From Gemmatimonadota bacterium (GTDB lineage: Bacteria; Gemmatimonadota; Gemmatimonadetes; Longimicrobiales; Gaopeijiaceae): a stretch of 64,000 bases of DNA. The translations under genes were made by a program, and so were the position numbers. Positions 17,680 through 23,706 of this stretch are shown piece by piece. The DNA lies in assembly GCA_030428885.1 (NCBI GenBank), contig JAUIEJ010000003.1, positions 310,001 to 374,000 on the forward strand. Reading direction: 5' to 3'. The stretch's first letter is position 1, and each line of letters begins with the position of its first letter. The notes beneath the pieces are model-generated. The model did no database searches and was not told the DNA's origin. It worked only from the letters and a program-made list of their open reading frames with translations.

Positions 17680-18927
17680 TCAGCCGAAGACGCCCTTGAA
17701 GAAGTAGAAGAAGAAGGCCGCCAGCGTCGCTCCGATGGGCAGGGTCACGATCCACGAGGTCACGATCCCCACCACGACCCTCAGGTCGATGGCGGCCACG
17801 CCCCGGGCCAGCCCCACCCCCAGAACGGCCCCCACGATGATGTGGGTGGTGGACACCGGCAGCCCGAGTCGGGAGGCCAGGACCACCGTGGAGGCCGCCG
17901 CCAGTTCGGCGCAGAAGCCGCGGCTCGGCGTCAGTTCGGTGATCTTGGTGCCGATGGTCTTCATGACCCGGTACCCCATGGTGGCCAGGCCCAGGATGAT
18001 GCCCGCGCCGCCCAGGAGCAGGATCCAGAGGGGGAGGGGCGAGTCCTGGGCCACCTCCCCCGTGCCCACGATGCTCACCACCGCGGCCAGGGGCCCCACG
18101 CCGTTGGCCACGTCGTTCGACCCGTGGGCGAAGGCCATGGCGCAGGCGGTGAACACGCAGAGGGGCGCGAAGATCCGCTCCACCCCGGCGTAGTGGAAGT
18201 CCCGGTCCGCGTCGGGATCGATCTCGATCCGCTGGATCAGGGTTCGCCCCACCAGGGCCACCGCCGTCCCCACGACCAGGGCGATGACCACCGTCTGGGT
18301 CGTGGTGAGGGTGAGATCGAGGTGGGTCAGCCCCTTGAAGAGGGTCACCAGGGCGATGAGCATGCCCATGATGAACACGTAGACCGGCCCGGCCCGCCGC
18401 GCCGCTTCCATGGGGGCGTCGGTGTCGAGAATGAAGTGCCGGACGCTCATGGCCAGGAGGAAGGCGATGAGAGCGCCCAGGAGGGGCGACACCAGCCAGC
18501 TCGCCACGATCCCGCCCACCTGTCCCCACTCCACGGCCTGGGGGCCGAGTCCCACGATCCCGAACCCGATGAGGGAGCCCACGATGGTGTGGGTGGTGGA
18601 CACGGGCCACCCGAAGTAGCTGGCCACCAGCAGCCACAAGCCCGCGGCGAGGAGCGCCGCCAGCATGCCGTACACCAGGATCTCCGGGGCCGGCACGAAC
18701 GAGGCGTCGATGATGCCTTTTCGGATGGTGCTGGTGACGTGCCCGCCGGCCAGGACGGCTCCCGTGAACTCGAAGATGGCCGCGATGAGGATGGCTTTGC
18801 GGACCGTGATGGCTCCCGAGCCCACCGACGTTCCCATGGCGTTGGCGACGTCGTTGGCGCCGACGCCCCAGGTCATGAACAGCCCCAGGACGATGGCGAG
18901 GACCACGAGGGCTACGGCGAATTCCAT
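17680..18927 (-). CDS. pit: PiT-family inorganic phosphate transporter
   Basis: A 415-residue low-affinity phosphate permease (metal-phosphate/H+ or Na+ symport). The two inverted PiT signatures are intact: GANDVANAMGTSVGSGA in the N-terminal half and AHGSNDVANGVGPLAA in the C-terminal half. Each is accompanied by the PVSTTHTIVGS and PVSTTHIIVGA loops. Start ATG 18927 (MEFAVALVV) with GAGG upstream. It follows a DUF47 protein by 37 nt, the usual order for PiT systems. Confidence 0.95.
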   Translation of the reverse strand: MEFAVALVVLAIVLGLFMTWGVGANDVANAMGTSVGSGAITVRKAILIAAIFEFTGAVLAGGHVTSTIRKGIIDASFVPAPEILVYGMLAALLAAGLWLLVASYFGWPVSTTHTIVGSLIGFGIVGLGPQAVEWGQVGGIVASWLVSPLLGALIAFLLAMSVRHFILDTDAPMEAARRAGPVYVFIMGMLIALVTLFKGLTHLDLTLTTTQTVVIALVVGTAVALVGRTLIQRIEIDPDADRDFHYAGVERIFAPLCVFTACAMAFAHGSNDVANGVGPLAAVVSIVGTGEVAQDSPLPLWILLLGGAGIILGLATMGYRVMKTIGTKITELTPSRGFCAELAAASTVVLASRLGLPVSTTHIIVGAVLGVGLARGVAAIDLRVVVGIVTSWIVTLPIGATLAAFFFYFFKGVFG

Positions 18928-18964: not shown

Positions 18965-19645
18965 TCAGCGGGCCACGAGGAGCCGCAGGCGGTCGCCCAC
19001 ATTCTCGGCCTCGTCGGCGACCCGCCCGAGCATGCGGATCAGTTCGTACCAGAAGACCACGGAGAGGGGACCCACGTCGTCTTCGTGATCGAAGAGCAGG
19101 TCCACCAATTCGGCCCCCTGGGCGTCGGTGACGGATTCCCGGACCGACACTTCGTCGATCATGACCAGGAGCTTCTCGGCCTCCTTTCCCCGGAAACCCA
19201 CTTCCACGAGTTCGTCGAGCTGCTCCACCAGGGCGCGGGCGTGGCCCACCACCTCCACCACTTCCAGCACGAAGACCCGGAGCGGGTCGGCCAGGGCCGG
19301 CACGAAGCGGAGCTTGCCCATACCCAGGAGCCCTGCCGCGTCCTGGGCGGCGTCGGCAACGGCGTCCTGGCTCGACAGCAGGTCCAGGAGGTCGCGACGG
19401 GCCACCGGGAGGAACAGGGTGGAGGGCAGCGCCGAGCGGATGGAGTTCTTGACCTCGTCGGCTTCGTGTTCGAGGCGAAAGACCTCGGCGCGGCGGGCCC
19501 GGGCCGCACCCGGGTCTGCGGCCTCCACCGCGTCCAGGAGCCCCGGGAGTTCGCCCACGCACCGCTCCACGATGCGCATGTGGTCCTGGAGGGGACCGAA
19601 GGGGGAGCGGGCGAAGAGGTTGGCCAGGGGGTTGGTCATCTTCAT
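18965..19645 (-). CDS. DUF47 / PhoU-like phosphate transport accessory protein
   Basis: 226 residues, all-helical, with the family opening NPLANLFARSPFGPLQDHMRIVERCV and the conserved charged helix RAEVFRLEHEADEVKNSIR (ExxxD metal-type motif). DUF47 proteins are distant PhoU relatives and are usually encoded beside pit genes, where they are thought to control or assist transport. ATG 19645 is chosen because upstream codons belong to the end of the neighbouring gene. It lies 25 nt after the P-loop/phosphatase gene and 37 nt before pit, which suggests one transcript. Confidence 0.88.
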   Translation of the reverse strand: MKMTNPLANLFARSPFGPLQDHMRIVERCVGELPGLLDAVEAADPGAARARRAEVFRLEHEADEVKNSIRSALPSTLFLPVARRDLLDLLSSQDAVADAAQDAAGLLGMGKLRFVPALADPLRVFVLEVVEVVGHARALVEQLDELVEVGFRGKEAEKLLVMIDEVSVRESVTDAQGAELVDLLFDHEDDVGPLSVVFWYELIRMLGRVADEAENVGDRLRLLVAR

Positions 19646-19670: not shown

Positions 19671-21707
19671 TCAGACCGGGGAGACGTCGGCGGGTGCGTG
19701 GGTGAACTCGGCCCGGGCCGGATAGACCAGGGGCACGAAGTCCTCCCCCGCCCGGACGAAGGCGGCCGCCCGGTCGGCACGGGCGGAATACACGAGGTGG
19801 TGGCGCTTGATGCCCCCGTGGGCGAACTGCACCGCATCCTGGTCGGGCCCCGGGTTGTGGGACACGATGGTGATGGCGGGCTTCTTCCGGCCCAGGGCCT
19901 TCTGCAGGGCCCGCACGTCCCGCTTGGTGTAGCCTCCGGGCCGGCGGGCCGACCGCACCCGCCCCCAGGTGATGGAGTGGCGCAAACGGGGTTCCTCGTG
20001 AATGTCGATGAGTTTGCGCCGGGACACGGTCCCGGTGGGAGGACCGGCGTGGCAGGCCACGAACCCGGCCCCGGTGGCGACGTACGGAAGAAGATCGTAG
20101 AAGCGCTTCATGCGTGCGAGGGCGTCGGGGCCCCGCTCCTGGACGATGCGGTTCTTCCAGCGTCGCCCCTGAGCAACCCCCCCCTTGGTGATCTCCGACG
20201 AAAAGGTCTCGTGGTTGCCGCGAAGATGGATGATCCGACCCGGGAGCGCGAGAATCAAGCGCACCACCACGTCGTGGGCCAGGAGCGACGCCGTCATGTC
20301 GCCCAGGTCGCCGTCTTCGGGGTGCACGACGTCGCCCAGGAGCACCAGGGCCGCCCGGCCCTCTTCCAGGGCGTCCAGCGTCCGGCCCTCCGAGAGGATC
20401 GTGACCAGGTTGTCGATGCGGGCGTGGAGGTCGCCCACCACCACGGGGACCACCGTGTCGGGCAGCTCCACCAGGCCGCCGGGCTCACCCCGTCGGTCCC
20501 GGGGGCGCCACTGGCTCCGCTCCAGGACGTCGATGGCCTGGTCCAATTCCCGGGCCGCCCGGTCCGGGGGCAGGTGGGGGGGCATCCCCTCGAGGATGGC
20601 CCGGAGTCGGGACACCCGGGCCGCCCGGTCGTCCTCCAGCCGGGTGGCGGCCTCCCCGTGGAGCGCACGGATCCGGGTGCCCGCCGGTGAGTCCAGGTCG
20701 CCCACCGTGAGCCAGTCCCCTTCGTGGACCACCTCCAGGCGGGCCGGAACGTCCTTGGGCATGCGAGGCGTGGGGAGCCCGACGGAGTCGGGCAAGCGGA
20801 CCAGGTCGCCGGGGAGCAGGCGCTGTGAGGGACCCGGTCCCAGGAGGTACGGCTCGGGGTCCAGGAGCCGCACGCCGTCGTCGCCGTCGGGGTGGAGTTC
20901 CAGCCGCTGGGTGTCGGACTGGATGGCCACGGGGAGGACCCGACGGGGCACCAGGGCCCGGCGACCGCGCAGTTCGATCTCCTCGAACCGGTCCAGAACC
21001 CGGTACCCGCTGGGGCTGATGATCCGCTTCACGTACGTGTGCAGGAGCGATCGCTCCCGGGCCCGCCCCTCTCCCCGGAGTTCCTTCTCCACGACGTCGG
21101 TGGAGGGAGCCTCGGCGAAGACCTTGGGTCGCCCCCCGAACTCGTCCCGCACGTACACGGGCAACCCCGCGAGGTGGAGGTGCCGCGCCACCCGCCAGCT
21201 CGCGTCGAGTTGAGCCCGCACCCGCTCCAGGCTCAGGCGTTCGTCCACCACGTGGCTGTGGCGGTCCGAACGGCGCATCCGGGCGTCGAAGACGCTCCCG
21301 GGGGGAGGGAGGAGGAAGTCGAAGACGTACTTCCTTCGCCAACGCCACGGATCCCGGGGGCCGCCGAGGGGAGGGAGCCGAATCCGCTCCAACTCCAGGA
21401 TCGGCGGCTCGTCACCGTCGAGCCACGCGTCCTCGAACACCGACAGGGCTCGGTTGAAGCCACGGAACGGAAGTCCCAGGTGGATCTGCCGGGGCCGGAA
21501 GGCCAACACCCGGGATCGCCACCAGTTGGGGCGGGTGACGTCGACGAACCCCTCCTCGGGCCACCCTCCGATGGCGCCCACCAGAGTGGTCTTTCCAACC
21601 CCCGGCGGGCCCGTCACCAGGAGCTGTCGAAACGATACGCCGGCAGGGAAGGGGATCCCCTTGATCGACTGGAGGTCCTCGACCTCCTCCAATGCGTAGC
21701 GATCCAC
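19671..21707 (-). CDS. P-loop / FHA-like / PPP-phosphatase fusion protein
   Basis: About 678 residues from a GTG at 21707. Residues 1 to about 200 hold a P-loop domain with Walker A GPPGVGKTT at 33-41. Residues about 268-350 look FHA-like: YLLGPGP, later VPARLEVVHEGDWLTVGDLDSPAGTR, like the FHA HA-I...D-L-S-x-N-G-T pattern, but divergent. Residues 425-678 form a PPP-type metallophosphatase: GDLHARIDN (425), GDVVHPEDGD (458), RGNHE (about 496), CHAG (about 552), SHNPG (about 616). It may both bind NTP and hydrolyse phosphoesters, like a polynucleotide kinase-phosphatase or a signalling phosphatase. It leads the DUF47-pit cluster. The start is uncertain because the frame is open further upstream. 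Confidence 0.75.
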   Translation of the reverse strand: MDRYALEEVEDLQSIKGIPFPAGVSFRQLLVTGPPGVGKTTLVGAIGGWPEEGFVDVTRPNWWRSRVLAFRPRQIHLGLPFRGFNRALSVFEDAWLDGDEPPILELERIRLPPLGGPRDPWRWRRKYVFDFLLPPPGSVFDARMRRSDRHSHVVDERLSLERVRAQLDASWRVARHLHLAGLPVYVRDEFGGRPKVFAEAPSTDVVEKELRGEGRARERSLLHTYVKRIISPSGYRVLDRFEEIELRGRRALVPRRVLPVAIQSDTQRLELHPDGDDGVRLLDPEPYLLGPGPSQRLLPGDLVRLPDSVGLPTPRMPKDVPARLEVVHEGDWLTVGDLDSPAGTRIRALHGEAATRLEDDRAARVSRLRAILEGMPPHLPPDRAARELDQAIDVLERSQWRPRDRRGEPGGLVELPDTVVPVVVGDLHARIDNLVTILSEGRTLDALEEGRAALVLLGDVVHPEDGDLGDMTASLLAHDVVVRLILALPGRIIHLRGNHETFSSEITKGGVAQGRRWKNRIVQERGPDALARMKRFYDLLPYVATGAGFVACHAGPPTGTVSRRKLIDIHEEPRLRHSITWGRVRSARRPGGYTKRDVRALQKALGRKKPAITIVSHNPGPDQDAVQFAHGGIKRHHLVYSARADRAAAFVRAGEDFVPLVYPARAEFTHAPADVSPV

Positions 21708-21798: not shown

Positions 21799-21828
21799 TT
21801 GTCCGCCTCGGCCGTTCCGGCGTATCGT
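21799..21828 (+). promoter_or_regulatory. Candidate promoter for the GT-C gene
   Basis: TTGTCC at 21799-21804 and TATCGT at 21823-21828 are separated by 18 nt. They sit in the 172-nt gap between the divergent phosphatase-fusion gene and the glycosyltransferase. The -10 box lies about 52 nt before the GTG at 21880. Confidence 0.4.
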
Positions 21829-21879
21829 CCCGGCTGCCGCGGTCGCTCCCCCCTCTCCCCCTTCCTGCACCCCAGGCCG

Positions 21880-23706
21880 GTGACGCGCACCCGACCCGAC
21901 CCCGTCGTCCTGGCCGCCCTGGTGGTGCTCCTGATCGGGCTGGCGGTGCGGTTCGTCCACCTGGGCTCGGATGCCACGAACCCCCTCTGGTCGGGGTGGC
22001 TCGGAGACGAGGGACGCTGGACCGAGATCGCCCACGAGGGCGTGGGGTTCGGCACGGTGGAGATCGAGACCGAGCTGACCCTCTCCCACCTCCTGCTGGC
22101 ACCCGTCTTCCAGGCCTCGGCCGCCGTCAGCCGGGCGGCCCTGGGCCCGGGCCTGGTGCCCATGCGACTGGTGAGCGCCGTGGCGGGGGTGGTGATCCTG
22201 GTGTTGGCGGGCGTGTTGTTGTCCAGGGGACTCGGCCGACCCTCGGCCCTGCTGGGGGTGGCCCTCCTGGCCGTGCATCCCGAGTTGGTCTACTTCAGCC
22301 GGGTGGCCATTCCCGAGATGCCGGCCCTGGCGTTCCAGTTCGCGGCGGTGGTGGTGCTGGTGTCGGGACCGACGGGGGCGGCCCGGGGGTTCGTGGCCGG
22401 GCTCCTCTTCGCCCTCGCCGCCGGCTTCAAGGGCACGGTGCTTCCCGTGCTCCCGGCCTTCCTGGCGGTGATCTGGTTCACCGCCGACCCGGATCGTCGG
22501 GCCGACGCGGTCCGGGCCGTGGGCGCGTTTCTCGCCGCCGTCCTCCTGTCGGCGGCCGTCCCGATCCTGGGGCTCTTCGTGGCCGGGTTCGGCGGGTCGC
22601 TCCTGGGCGGAGGCGGCGGCATGGGCGACCTCTTCGACTTCCTGGCCGGCGATACCCCGTACGGGATGTTGGCCACCCTCCACGACGGGGCCCACACGGT
22701 ATCGGTGAACCTGCTCCTGGCCCTGGTGTGGGTGCCGGCGATCCTGGCCTTCGGACCGTCGGCCGGACCCCGGTCCCCGGCTCGGAGGGCGCTCATGGCG
22801 GCCGCCCTGTGGGGCGCCGGCTGGATCGCGGTCTGGATGTGGCTCGACTATTTCCCCGCCCGGTACCTGGTCCACATCCACCTCCCCCTGATCCTCGTCC
22901 TGGTCCTGGCCGGAGCCGAGGTGGGGCGGGATCCGGCGGCGCGGCTCCCCTGGACCCTCGGGGGGATCGTACGGATGGGCCTCTTCGTGGTTCTGGCCCT
23001 CCCCCTGGCGTTCGCCCTGGGCCCGGCGTTGGCCAACGTCCTGGACACCGTGGGACTCCGTTTCGACCGGTTCCGCCACCACCTCGTCCTGGGGGTGGCC
23101 CTGGCGGGGGTCCTGGGCGTGATCACGAGTCGCATGGACGAACGCCGCGCCGTGTCGGCCCTCACCGTGCTTCCCGGCGCCCTGACCCTGATCTGGTGGC
23201 TAGCCCGCCACACGCCGTGGGTCCCCGACGGGTTCTGGCAACTCGACGGAGCGGTGGGCGCGCTGCGATGGGGGGCGATGCTCGGGGGGGCCGCCCTGGC
23301 GTTCCGCTGGCTGAGCCGGGGCGGGCTGCCCCTCCGCCGCCTGGCCGTGGTCCTGGCCGTGGCGTGGGCGGCCGAGGACGTGGATCAGCGCCGGAGTCCC
23401 ACGTACGTCATGCGGGAGGTGGGGGACTACCTCGACGAGCGGTACGACGAGGGAGAACGGCTCGGGACCATCTACGCGGCGTCGGTATTCCTGGAGACCC
23501 GTCTGGCCTGGATCGAACCTCCCGACGAAGACGACCCTCCGGCGGGACTGCTGGTCTTCTGGGGGTACGACGAGGACGTGGACGTGACCGGGTACACGCT
23601 GGTCCGGGAATTCCCCCTGGAGCTGGGGGACGACTTCCTCTTCTACCACGAATTCCACGAGCCACCGTCGCTGCGGCTCTATGAACCCTCCGGCTCGGCG
23701 CCGTAG
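21880..23706 (+). CDS. GT-C family membrane glycosyltransferase (ArnT/PMT-like)
   Basis: 608 residues with roughly a dozen membrane helices. The family uses polyprenyl-phosphate sugars on the outer face of the membrane. The catalytic acidic loop after helix 1 is LWSGWLGDEGRWTEIA (DE-type motif), and AVHPELVYFSRVAIPEMPALAFQ is the typical conserved luminal segment. A soluble C-terminal tail of about 100 residues (RRSPTYVMREVGDYLDERYDEG) is present. The frame is open to 21799, but GTG 21880 puts the first helix at the right distance. Acceptor and sugar are unknown. Confidence 0.85.
   Translation: MTRTRPDPVVLAALVVLLIGLAVRFVHLGSDATNPLWSGWLGDEGRWTEIAHEGVGFGTVEIETELTLSHLLLAPVFQASAAVSRAALGPGLVPMRLVSAVAGVVILVLAGVLLSRGLGRPSALLGVALLAVHPELVYFSRVAIPEMPALAFQFAAVVVLVSGPTGAARGFVAGLLFALAAGFKGTVLPVLPAFLAVIWFTADPDRRADAVRAVGAFLAAVLLSAAVPILGLFVAGFGGSLLGGGGGMGDLFDFLAGDTPYGMLATLHDGAHTVSVNLLLALVWVPAILAFGPSAGPRSPARRALMAAALWGAGWIAVWMWLDYFPARYLVHIHLPLILVLVLAGAEVGRDPAARLPWTLGGIVRMGLFVVLALPLAFALGPALANVLDTVGLRFDRFRHHLVLGVALAGVLGVITSRMDERRAVSALTVLPGALTLIWWLARHTPWVPDGFWQLDGAVGALRWGAMLGGAALAFRWLSRGGLPLRRLAVVLAVAWAAEDVDQRRSPTYVMREVGDYLDERYDEGERLGTIYAASVFLETRLAWIEPPDEDDPPAGLLVFWGYDEDVDVTGYTLVREFPLELGDDFLFYHEFHEPPSLRLYEPSGSAP

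Follow-up and report, generated by a model that had tools for sequence, protein, structure and literature searches.

The window analysed here is a 64,000-nucleotide stretch of a Gemmatimonadota contig (JAUIEJ010000003.1). On its minus strand, a gene for a fused P-loop, FHA-like and PPP-like protein (Table 1) lies 25 nt ahead of a DUF47 gene, as the initial annotation had read it, and a PiT-family phosphate transporter gene (pit) follows on the same strand. That annotation had placed pit 62 nt beyond the DUF47 gene; measured to the ATG at 18927, from which the conserved MEFAV is read, the spacing is 37 nt. The DUF47 and PiT genes, both recognized by Pfam, are adjacent on one strand and thus make up a Pap-Pit uptake operon, Pap being the DUF47 protein. 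The frame of the fusion gene stays open further upstream, where an ATG at 22163 would give 830 aa; the 678-aa reading is preferred because a congener (locus L002) keeps the same GTG start and the same length. A divergent membrane glycosyltransferase-like gene (21799-23706, plus strand) begins about 90 nt from the fusion gene start, and a search of the region for a sigma-70-like promoter found none.

An operon of a DUF47 regulator gene and a phosphate uptake gene is known from staphylococci as phoU2-pit (PMC7326077). The DUF47 gene adjoins the PiT gene in both cases, whereas the operon described here carries in addition a P-loop gene and an FHA-PPP gene, or the fusion of the two.

Table 1. Genes and protein regions at the locus (window positions)
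Feature	Position	Strand	Details
Fused P-loop / FHA-like / PPP-like protein	19671-21707	-	678 aa, GTG start
P-loop domain, residues 1-200	21108-21707	-	Walker A GPPGVGKT 33-40; RPRQIHLGLPF 71-81; invariant R108, R143, R146, D155
FHA-like core, residues 294-348	20664-20828	-	profile match; Gly-Arg and His of the phosphopeptide site lost here
PPP-fold phosphoesterase, residues 364-672	19692-20618	-	all metal ligands present; GD-V-V-H-P-E in place of GDXXDRG
DUF47 / PhoU_div (Pit accessory protein)	18965-19645	-	226 aa; PF01865, E 1e-45
PiT-family phosphate transporter	17680-18927	-	415 aa; PF01384, E 2e-122

Split and fused forms and their genomic neighbours

Within the phylum of the window, few genomes have a full-length homolog (three of 395, the window included). 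A scan of genome contigs with the single sequence returned no homologs, whereas a profile built from a three-row alignment found them in Thermoanaerobaculia, in deltaproteobacterial and other proteobacterial metagenome-assembled genomes (MAGs), in siboglinid endosymbionts and in a Chromatiaceae MAG. Within the order of the latter, the P-loop domain occurs in 59 of 210 genomes; it is rare in the wider samples, i.e., the phylum of the Thermoanaerobaculia genome (3/247) and a class sample around the Chromatiaceae genome (3/185). Two weak matches in the phylum of locus L014 proved to be ABC ATPases. No match was obtained by tblastn against phage and plasmid records, and two matches on viral contigs were rejected after inspection of their open reading frames, which encode unrelated P-loop ATPases (helicase-like and MoxR-like).

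Gammaproteobacteria mostly carry a P-loop gene of about 205 aa followed directly by an FHA-PPP gene of about 485 aa. This split pair is found at 36 loci, its two genes often overlapping or separated by at most 30 nt, and only eight fused chains were collected, including that of the window. Fusion is thus the minor form of the module. On the tree of P-loop domains, three changes or fewer account for the fused form, which may have arisen only once.

The module is also an accessory one. At the cut-off used, a pit gene of any kind was present in only nine of 58 near relatives. The congener G395 (L112, 4936-8833) keeps the neighbours that the fusion gene has in the window, namely a MATE gene, a dipeptidase gene, pit (87% identical at the protein level), DUF47 and the glycosyltransferase-like gene, but no fusion gene; the glycosyltransferase-like gene stands directly beside DUF47. 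Such a clean absence from the same locus marks the fusion gene as accessory, and DUF47-pit operons free of the module exist elsewhere as well.

Where the module is present, its partners recur. Of the 48 loci retrieved, 40 have pit beside the module and 38 have DUF47; counting the window, the figures are 41 and 39 of 49. This context spans Gemmatimonadota, Acidobacteriota, one deltaproteobacterial contig and gammaproteobacteria. The homolog search proposed in the initial annotation thus found at least four lineages that keep both Walker A and the DUF47-pit neighbourhood. Three gene orders were observed. Gammaproteobacteria have DUF47-pit-P-loop-FHA-PPP, the phylum of the Thermoanaerobaculia genome has DUF47-pit-fusion (L099, L100), and Gemmatimonadota and L014 have fusion-DUF47-pit. 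Eight loci show no pit. Two of them (L073, L102) reach the end of a contig, three (L055, L056, L092) belong to the GAF-type relatives, and the remaining three (L008, L054, L088) lack the gene; at these last three and at L089, pit or the phosphoesterase is not next door.

Two of these exceptions can be described further. At locus L088 (genome G622), a diverged P-loop copy has no pit or phosphatase gene in its vicinity, and the same genome also has the full operon. Loci L008 and L014 have closely similar fused genes and the same flanks, with a Fic-like gene and small genes at L008 in place of the DUF47-pit pair of L014.

One could suspect that the neighbourhood is accidental or merely inherited synteny. 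The Pit proteins of Gemmatimonadota and Acidobacteriota are 80-81% identical, compared with 50-53% to most Pit proteins of near relatives, so whole operons have probably moved between phyla together, which would favour such an account. Against it, the partners recur although their gene order takes three forms and the module is split in some genomes and fused in others; chance or mere synteny is highly improbable. A second connection with phosphate comes from a P-loop-GAF relative (L013:3205-4572) that ends in a hydrophobic segment and immediately follows a pstA gene, whose score exceeds the TIGR00974 cut-off, and two pstB-like genes. At four further loci (L060, L066, L067, L083), a PPK2 gene stands just upstream of DUF47, some 3 kb ahead of the P-loop gene; the PPK2 score at L066 is 298.7 against a cut-off of 301.8. 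Given these recurrent partners, a link between the module and phosphate uptake is very probable. Another P-loop-GAF relative with a C-terminal hydrophobic segment (L009:5974-7275) lies near multihaem-cytochrome-like genes.

The initial annotation had left two links side by side, one to phosphate and one to nucleic-acid end processing, and only the former is borne out by the neighbourhood. End processing in the manner of bacterial Pnkp or eukaryotic PNKP is suggested by the P-loop, FHA-like and metallophosphatase parts sharing one chain, and bacterial Pnkp (kinase-PPP phosphatase-ligase) likewise joins an N-terminal P-loop domain to a metallophosphatase. However, the chain described here stops after the phosphatase domain with no ligase match, as the initial annotation had pointed out along with the different domain order. 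It further differs from bacterial Pnkp in the FHA-like region between the two domains, in its neighbours and in being encoded usually by two separate genes. The P-loop part matches no polynucleotide-kinase family, the conserved neighbours are phosphate-uptake and not repair genes, and no Pnkp match was found. The phosphatase of eukaryotic PNKP has another fold. End processing is therefore a very remote prospect.

The P-loop, FHA-like and phosphoesterase parts

The Walker A motif, which the initial annotation had located at residues 33-41, occupies 33-40 (GPPGVGKT), and no P-loop homolog lacks it. In the pattern GPPGxGK, P34, G36, G38 and K39 are present in all 48 P-loop rows and G33 and P35 in 47. 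Other invariant or nearly invariant residues are G48, E52, W62-W63, R71-P72-R73, H76, P80, R108, P112, R143, R146 and D155. Searches of Pfam and NCBIfam assigned the domain to no family beyond Walker A, where only fragments of Pfam AAA models matched, and profile comparisons were likewise centred on this motif. With the whole fusion protein, NCBIfam, PADLOC and PHROGs added nothing except a NinI-like phosphatase match. The sole structural hint for the P-loop part came from a Foldseek search of a viral fold library, in which phage thymidylate kinase was a weak match (best E 6.5e-3, TMt 0.41) and deoxynucleoside kinases appeared in the tail.

Thymidylate, guanylate and adenylate kinases have Walker A and the alpha/beta layout in common with the P-loop domain, but the likeness in sequence and profile ends at Walker A, and the domain has a conserved block of its own, RPREIHLGLPF. 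Guanylate kinase identity, guessed from a PPP...R..R pattern, was rejected after profile comparison matched Walker A only. We propose from the motif that the P-loop part binds ATP; that it also transfers phosphate would be a further step. The P-loop part might instead be an ATPase or ATP sensor that is not a kinase; bound to the transporter complex, it would control the phosphoesterase or the transporter through a nucleotide-dependent conformational change. Such a role is consistent with the missing kinase family match and with the sensor-like look of the relatives in which GAF and a C-terminal hydrophobic segment are joined to the P-loop domain. By itself, however, it leaves the near-constant phosphoesterase partner unexplained, and the conserved R143 and R146 would suit phosphoryl transfer. 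We regard an ATPase or sensor role as unlikely.

The FHA-like assignment of the middle of the chain (about 268-350 in the initial annotation) holds at the level of profile homology and fails at the level of ligand residues. Over 56 columns, an alignment of the region runs in register with five true FHA domains from the genome of the window (hhalign P 3e-6, probability 88%), whereas unrelated controls (kinases, ApaH, a chaperone) gave no signal (P 0.15-0.67). The core strands thus correspond to those of FHA domains (PF00498), and strands are predicted there in the AlphaFold model, although the region is below Pfam detection in every member tested. The phosphothreonine-binding residues (Gly-Arg and Ser-x-x-His) are absent from the window copy; among the relatives, the Arg is present in 23 of 47 and the His in 14 of the 25 aligned. 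Because these residues are lost here and patchy elsewhere, phosphothreonine binding by the window copy is doubtful.

Structure prediction for the 678-aa protein, suggested as a check in the initial annotation, gave a P-loop domain (about residues 1-200), a middle region around the FHA-like core (about 294-348) and a PPP fold (about 364-672). The AlphaFold model was computed from 87 homologous chains (8 fused, 40 P-loop and 39 FHA-PPP) and reached a mean pLDDT of 89 and a pTM of 0.69; with only three sequences, the pLDDT was 39 and the model was useless. Its best fold match is human PP5 (3h64_A, Z 27.0 over 270 residues, rmsd 3.3), and PP5, PP1 and calcineurin match at Z 25-27 over 256-271 residues. 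These searches are dominated by the PPP domain, so P-loop or FHA folds missing from their lists carry no meaning. Pfam recognizes PF00149 at residues 422-628 (E 7e-9).

The initial annotation had called residues 425-678 a full PPP metallophosphatase; the fold and the metal site bear this out, and the canonical GDXXDRG motif does not. The two-metal ligands D426, H428, D459, N498, H553 and H617 are present in all 47 phosphoesterase rows, as is GNH(E/D). In GDXHG, D-L-H is found in 47 of 47, the first Gly in 44 (Ala in three) and the last Gly in six, with Ala in the window. Of the PPP signature motifs (PMC535813), GDXXDRG is replaced: nearly all rows read GD-A/V-V-H/Q-x-E/D, and none of the 47 has Asp at the DRG position. 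Further invariant residues are K508, Q513, W517, R525, Y537, R583 and G592-Y593. In PP1, the phosphate is held between R96 (the Arg of the DRG motif) and R221, two residues that occur almost universally (PMC10214084). With the DRG Arg missing, half of this phosphate clamp appears to be missing in the group, and the invariant R583 may stand in for R221. Compared with PP5, PP1, PP2A, calcineurin and the ApaH/Alph branch, the group thus shares fold, metal ligands and GNH(E/D) but lacks the DRG Asp and the phosphate-binding Arg (47/47), and, unlike them, has an FHA-like domain ahead of the phosphoesterase. A second, diverged FHA-PPP copy lies near the first at three loci (L066:8782-10212, L067:796-2226 and L083:8324-9754).

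The missing DRG of the protein phosphatases makes a protein substrate uncertain. The diadenosine tetraphosphatase ApaH and the Alphs also carry changes in this motif (PMC535813), so a nonprotein substrate is conceivable. The two parts could then be a metabolic pair, in which a P-loop small-molecule kinase and a PPP-fold hydrolase of a phosphorylated metabolite (a dinucleoside polyphosphate, a nucleotide or polyphosphate) handle or signal incoming phosphate with no protein modification. The altered motif, PPK2 beside DUF47 at four loci and the nucleotide kinases among the weak fold matches all point this way, but the ApaH profile match covers the N-terminal metal-binding half only, and the FHA-like domain and the tight transporter linkage fit regulation better. 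A metabolic pair is, on balance, a somewhat unlikely account.

A candidate pair of regulators for Pap-Pit uptake

Our preferred reading is that the fusion protein unites in one chain the two proteins of an accessory module serving the Pap(DUF47)-Pit importer, in which an ATP-dependent modifier and an opposing phosphoesterase jointly control uptake; we assign this reading a probability of about 0.42. The P-loop part would bind ATP and act as a phosphotransferase or ATP-dependent modifier, and the C-terminal FHA-like/PPP-fold part would be a two-metal phosphoesterase undoing that modification. Together they would set Pap-Pit activity according to cellular ATP or phosphate, throttling uptake when phosphate is plentiful. 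A shared target would explain why the two parts stay together, and its control over phosphate uptake why they stay beside Pap-Pit. This reading draws on the ATP-binding motif, the intact metal site, the near-constant pairing and the cross-phylum DUF47-pit linkage. Against it, sequence comparison ties the P-loop domain to no kinase family outside Walker A, and the kinase idea leans on the weak thymidylate kinase Foldseek matches and the conserved arginines. The uncertain protein substrate, the degenerate FHA site of this copy, the DUF47-pit operons free of the module and the few homologs with no pit or phosphoesterase next door likewise weigh against it. Opposing kinase and phosphatase activities are put forward tentatively, at slightly less than even odds. 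A more specific version, in which the P-loop domain establishes a kinase family of its own, acting on proteins or metabolites, and forms with the DRG-less PPP-fold phosphatase a dedicated reversible-phosphorylation switch on Pap-Pit, is unlikely.

The control of DUF47/Pap and Pit is poorly known. In the literature searched, with subscription papers mostly outside its scope, we found no description of DUF47-Pit with a phosphatase or P-loop partner, and direct control of Pit by reversible phosphorylation is undescribed there. The four-part module names two candidate regulators whose pairing is testable. It also provides a function-linked context for a P-loop family with no Pfam or NCBIfam model and for a PPP-fold subgroup lacking DRG.

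That DUF47 or Pit is itself the target is doubtful. DUF47 positions specific to module-bearing operons were considered as target sites and set aside, as they mostly separate two Pit/DUF47 clades. The DUF47 proteins of G395 and the window are 53% identical. At Pit identities of 80-90%, module-bearing pairs have a mean DUF47 identity of 67%, whereas G395 compared with them has 54% (two pairs); at Pit identities of 70-80%, the values are 55% for module-bearing pairs and 46% for G395 (three pairs). The faster divergence of DUF47 in this one lineage, which lacks the module, is a hint that DUF47 may be the target.
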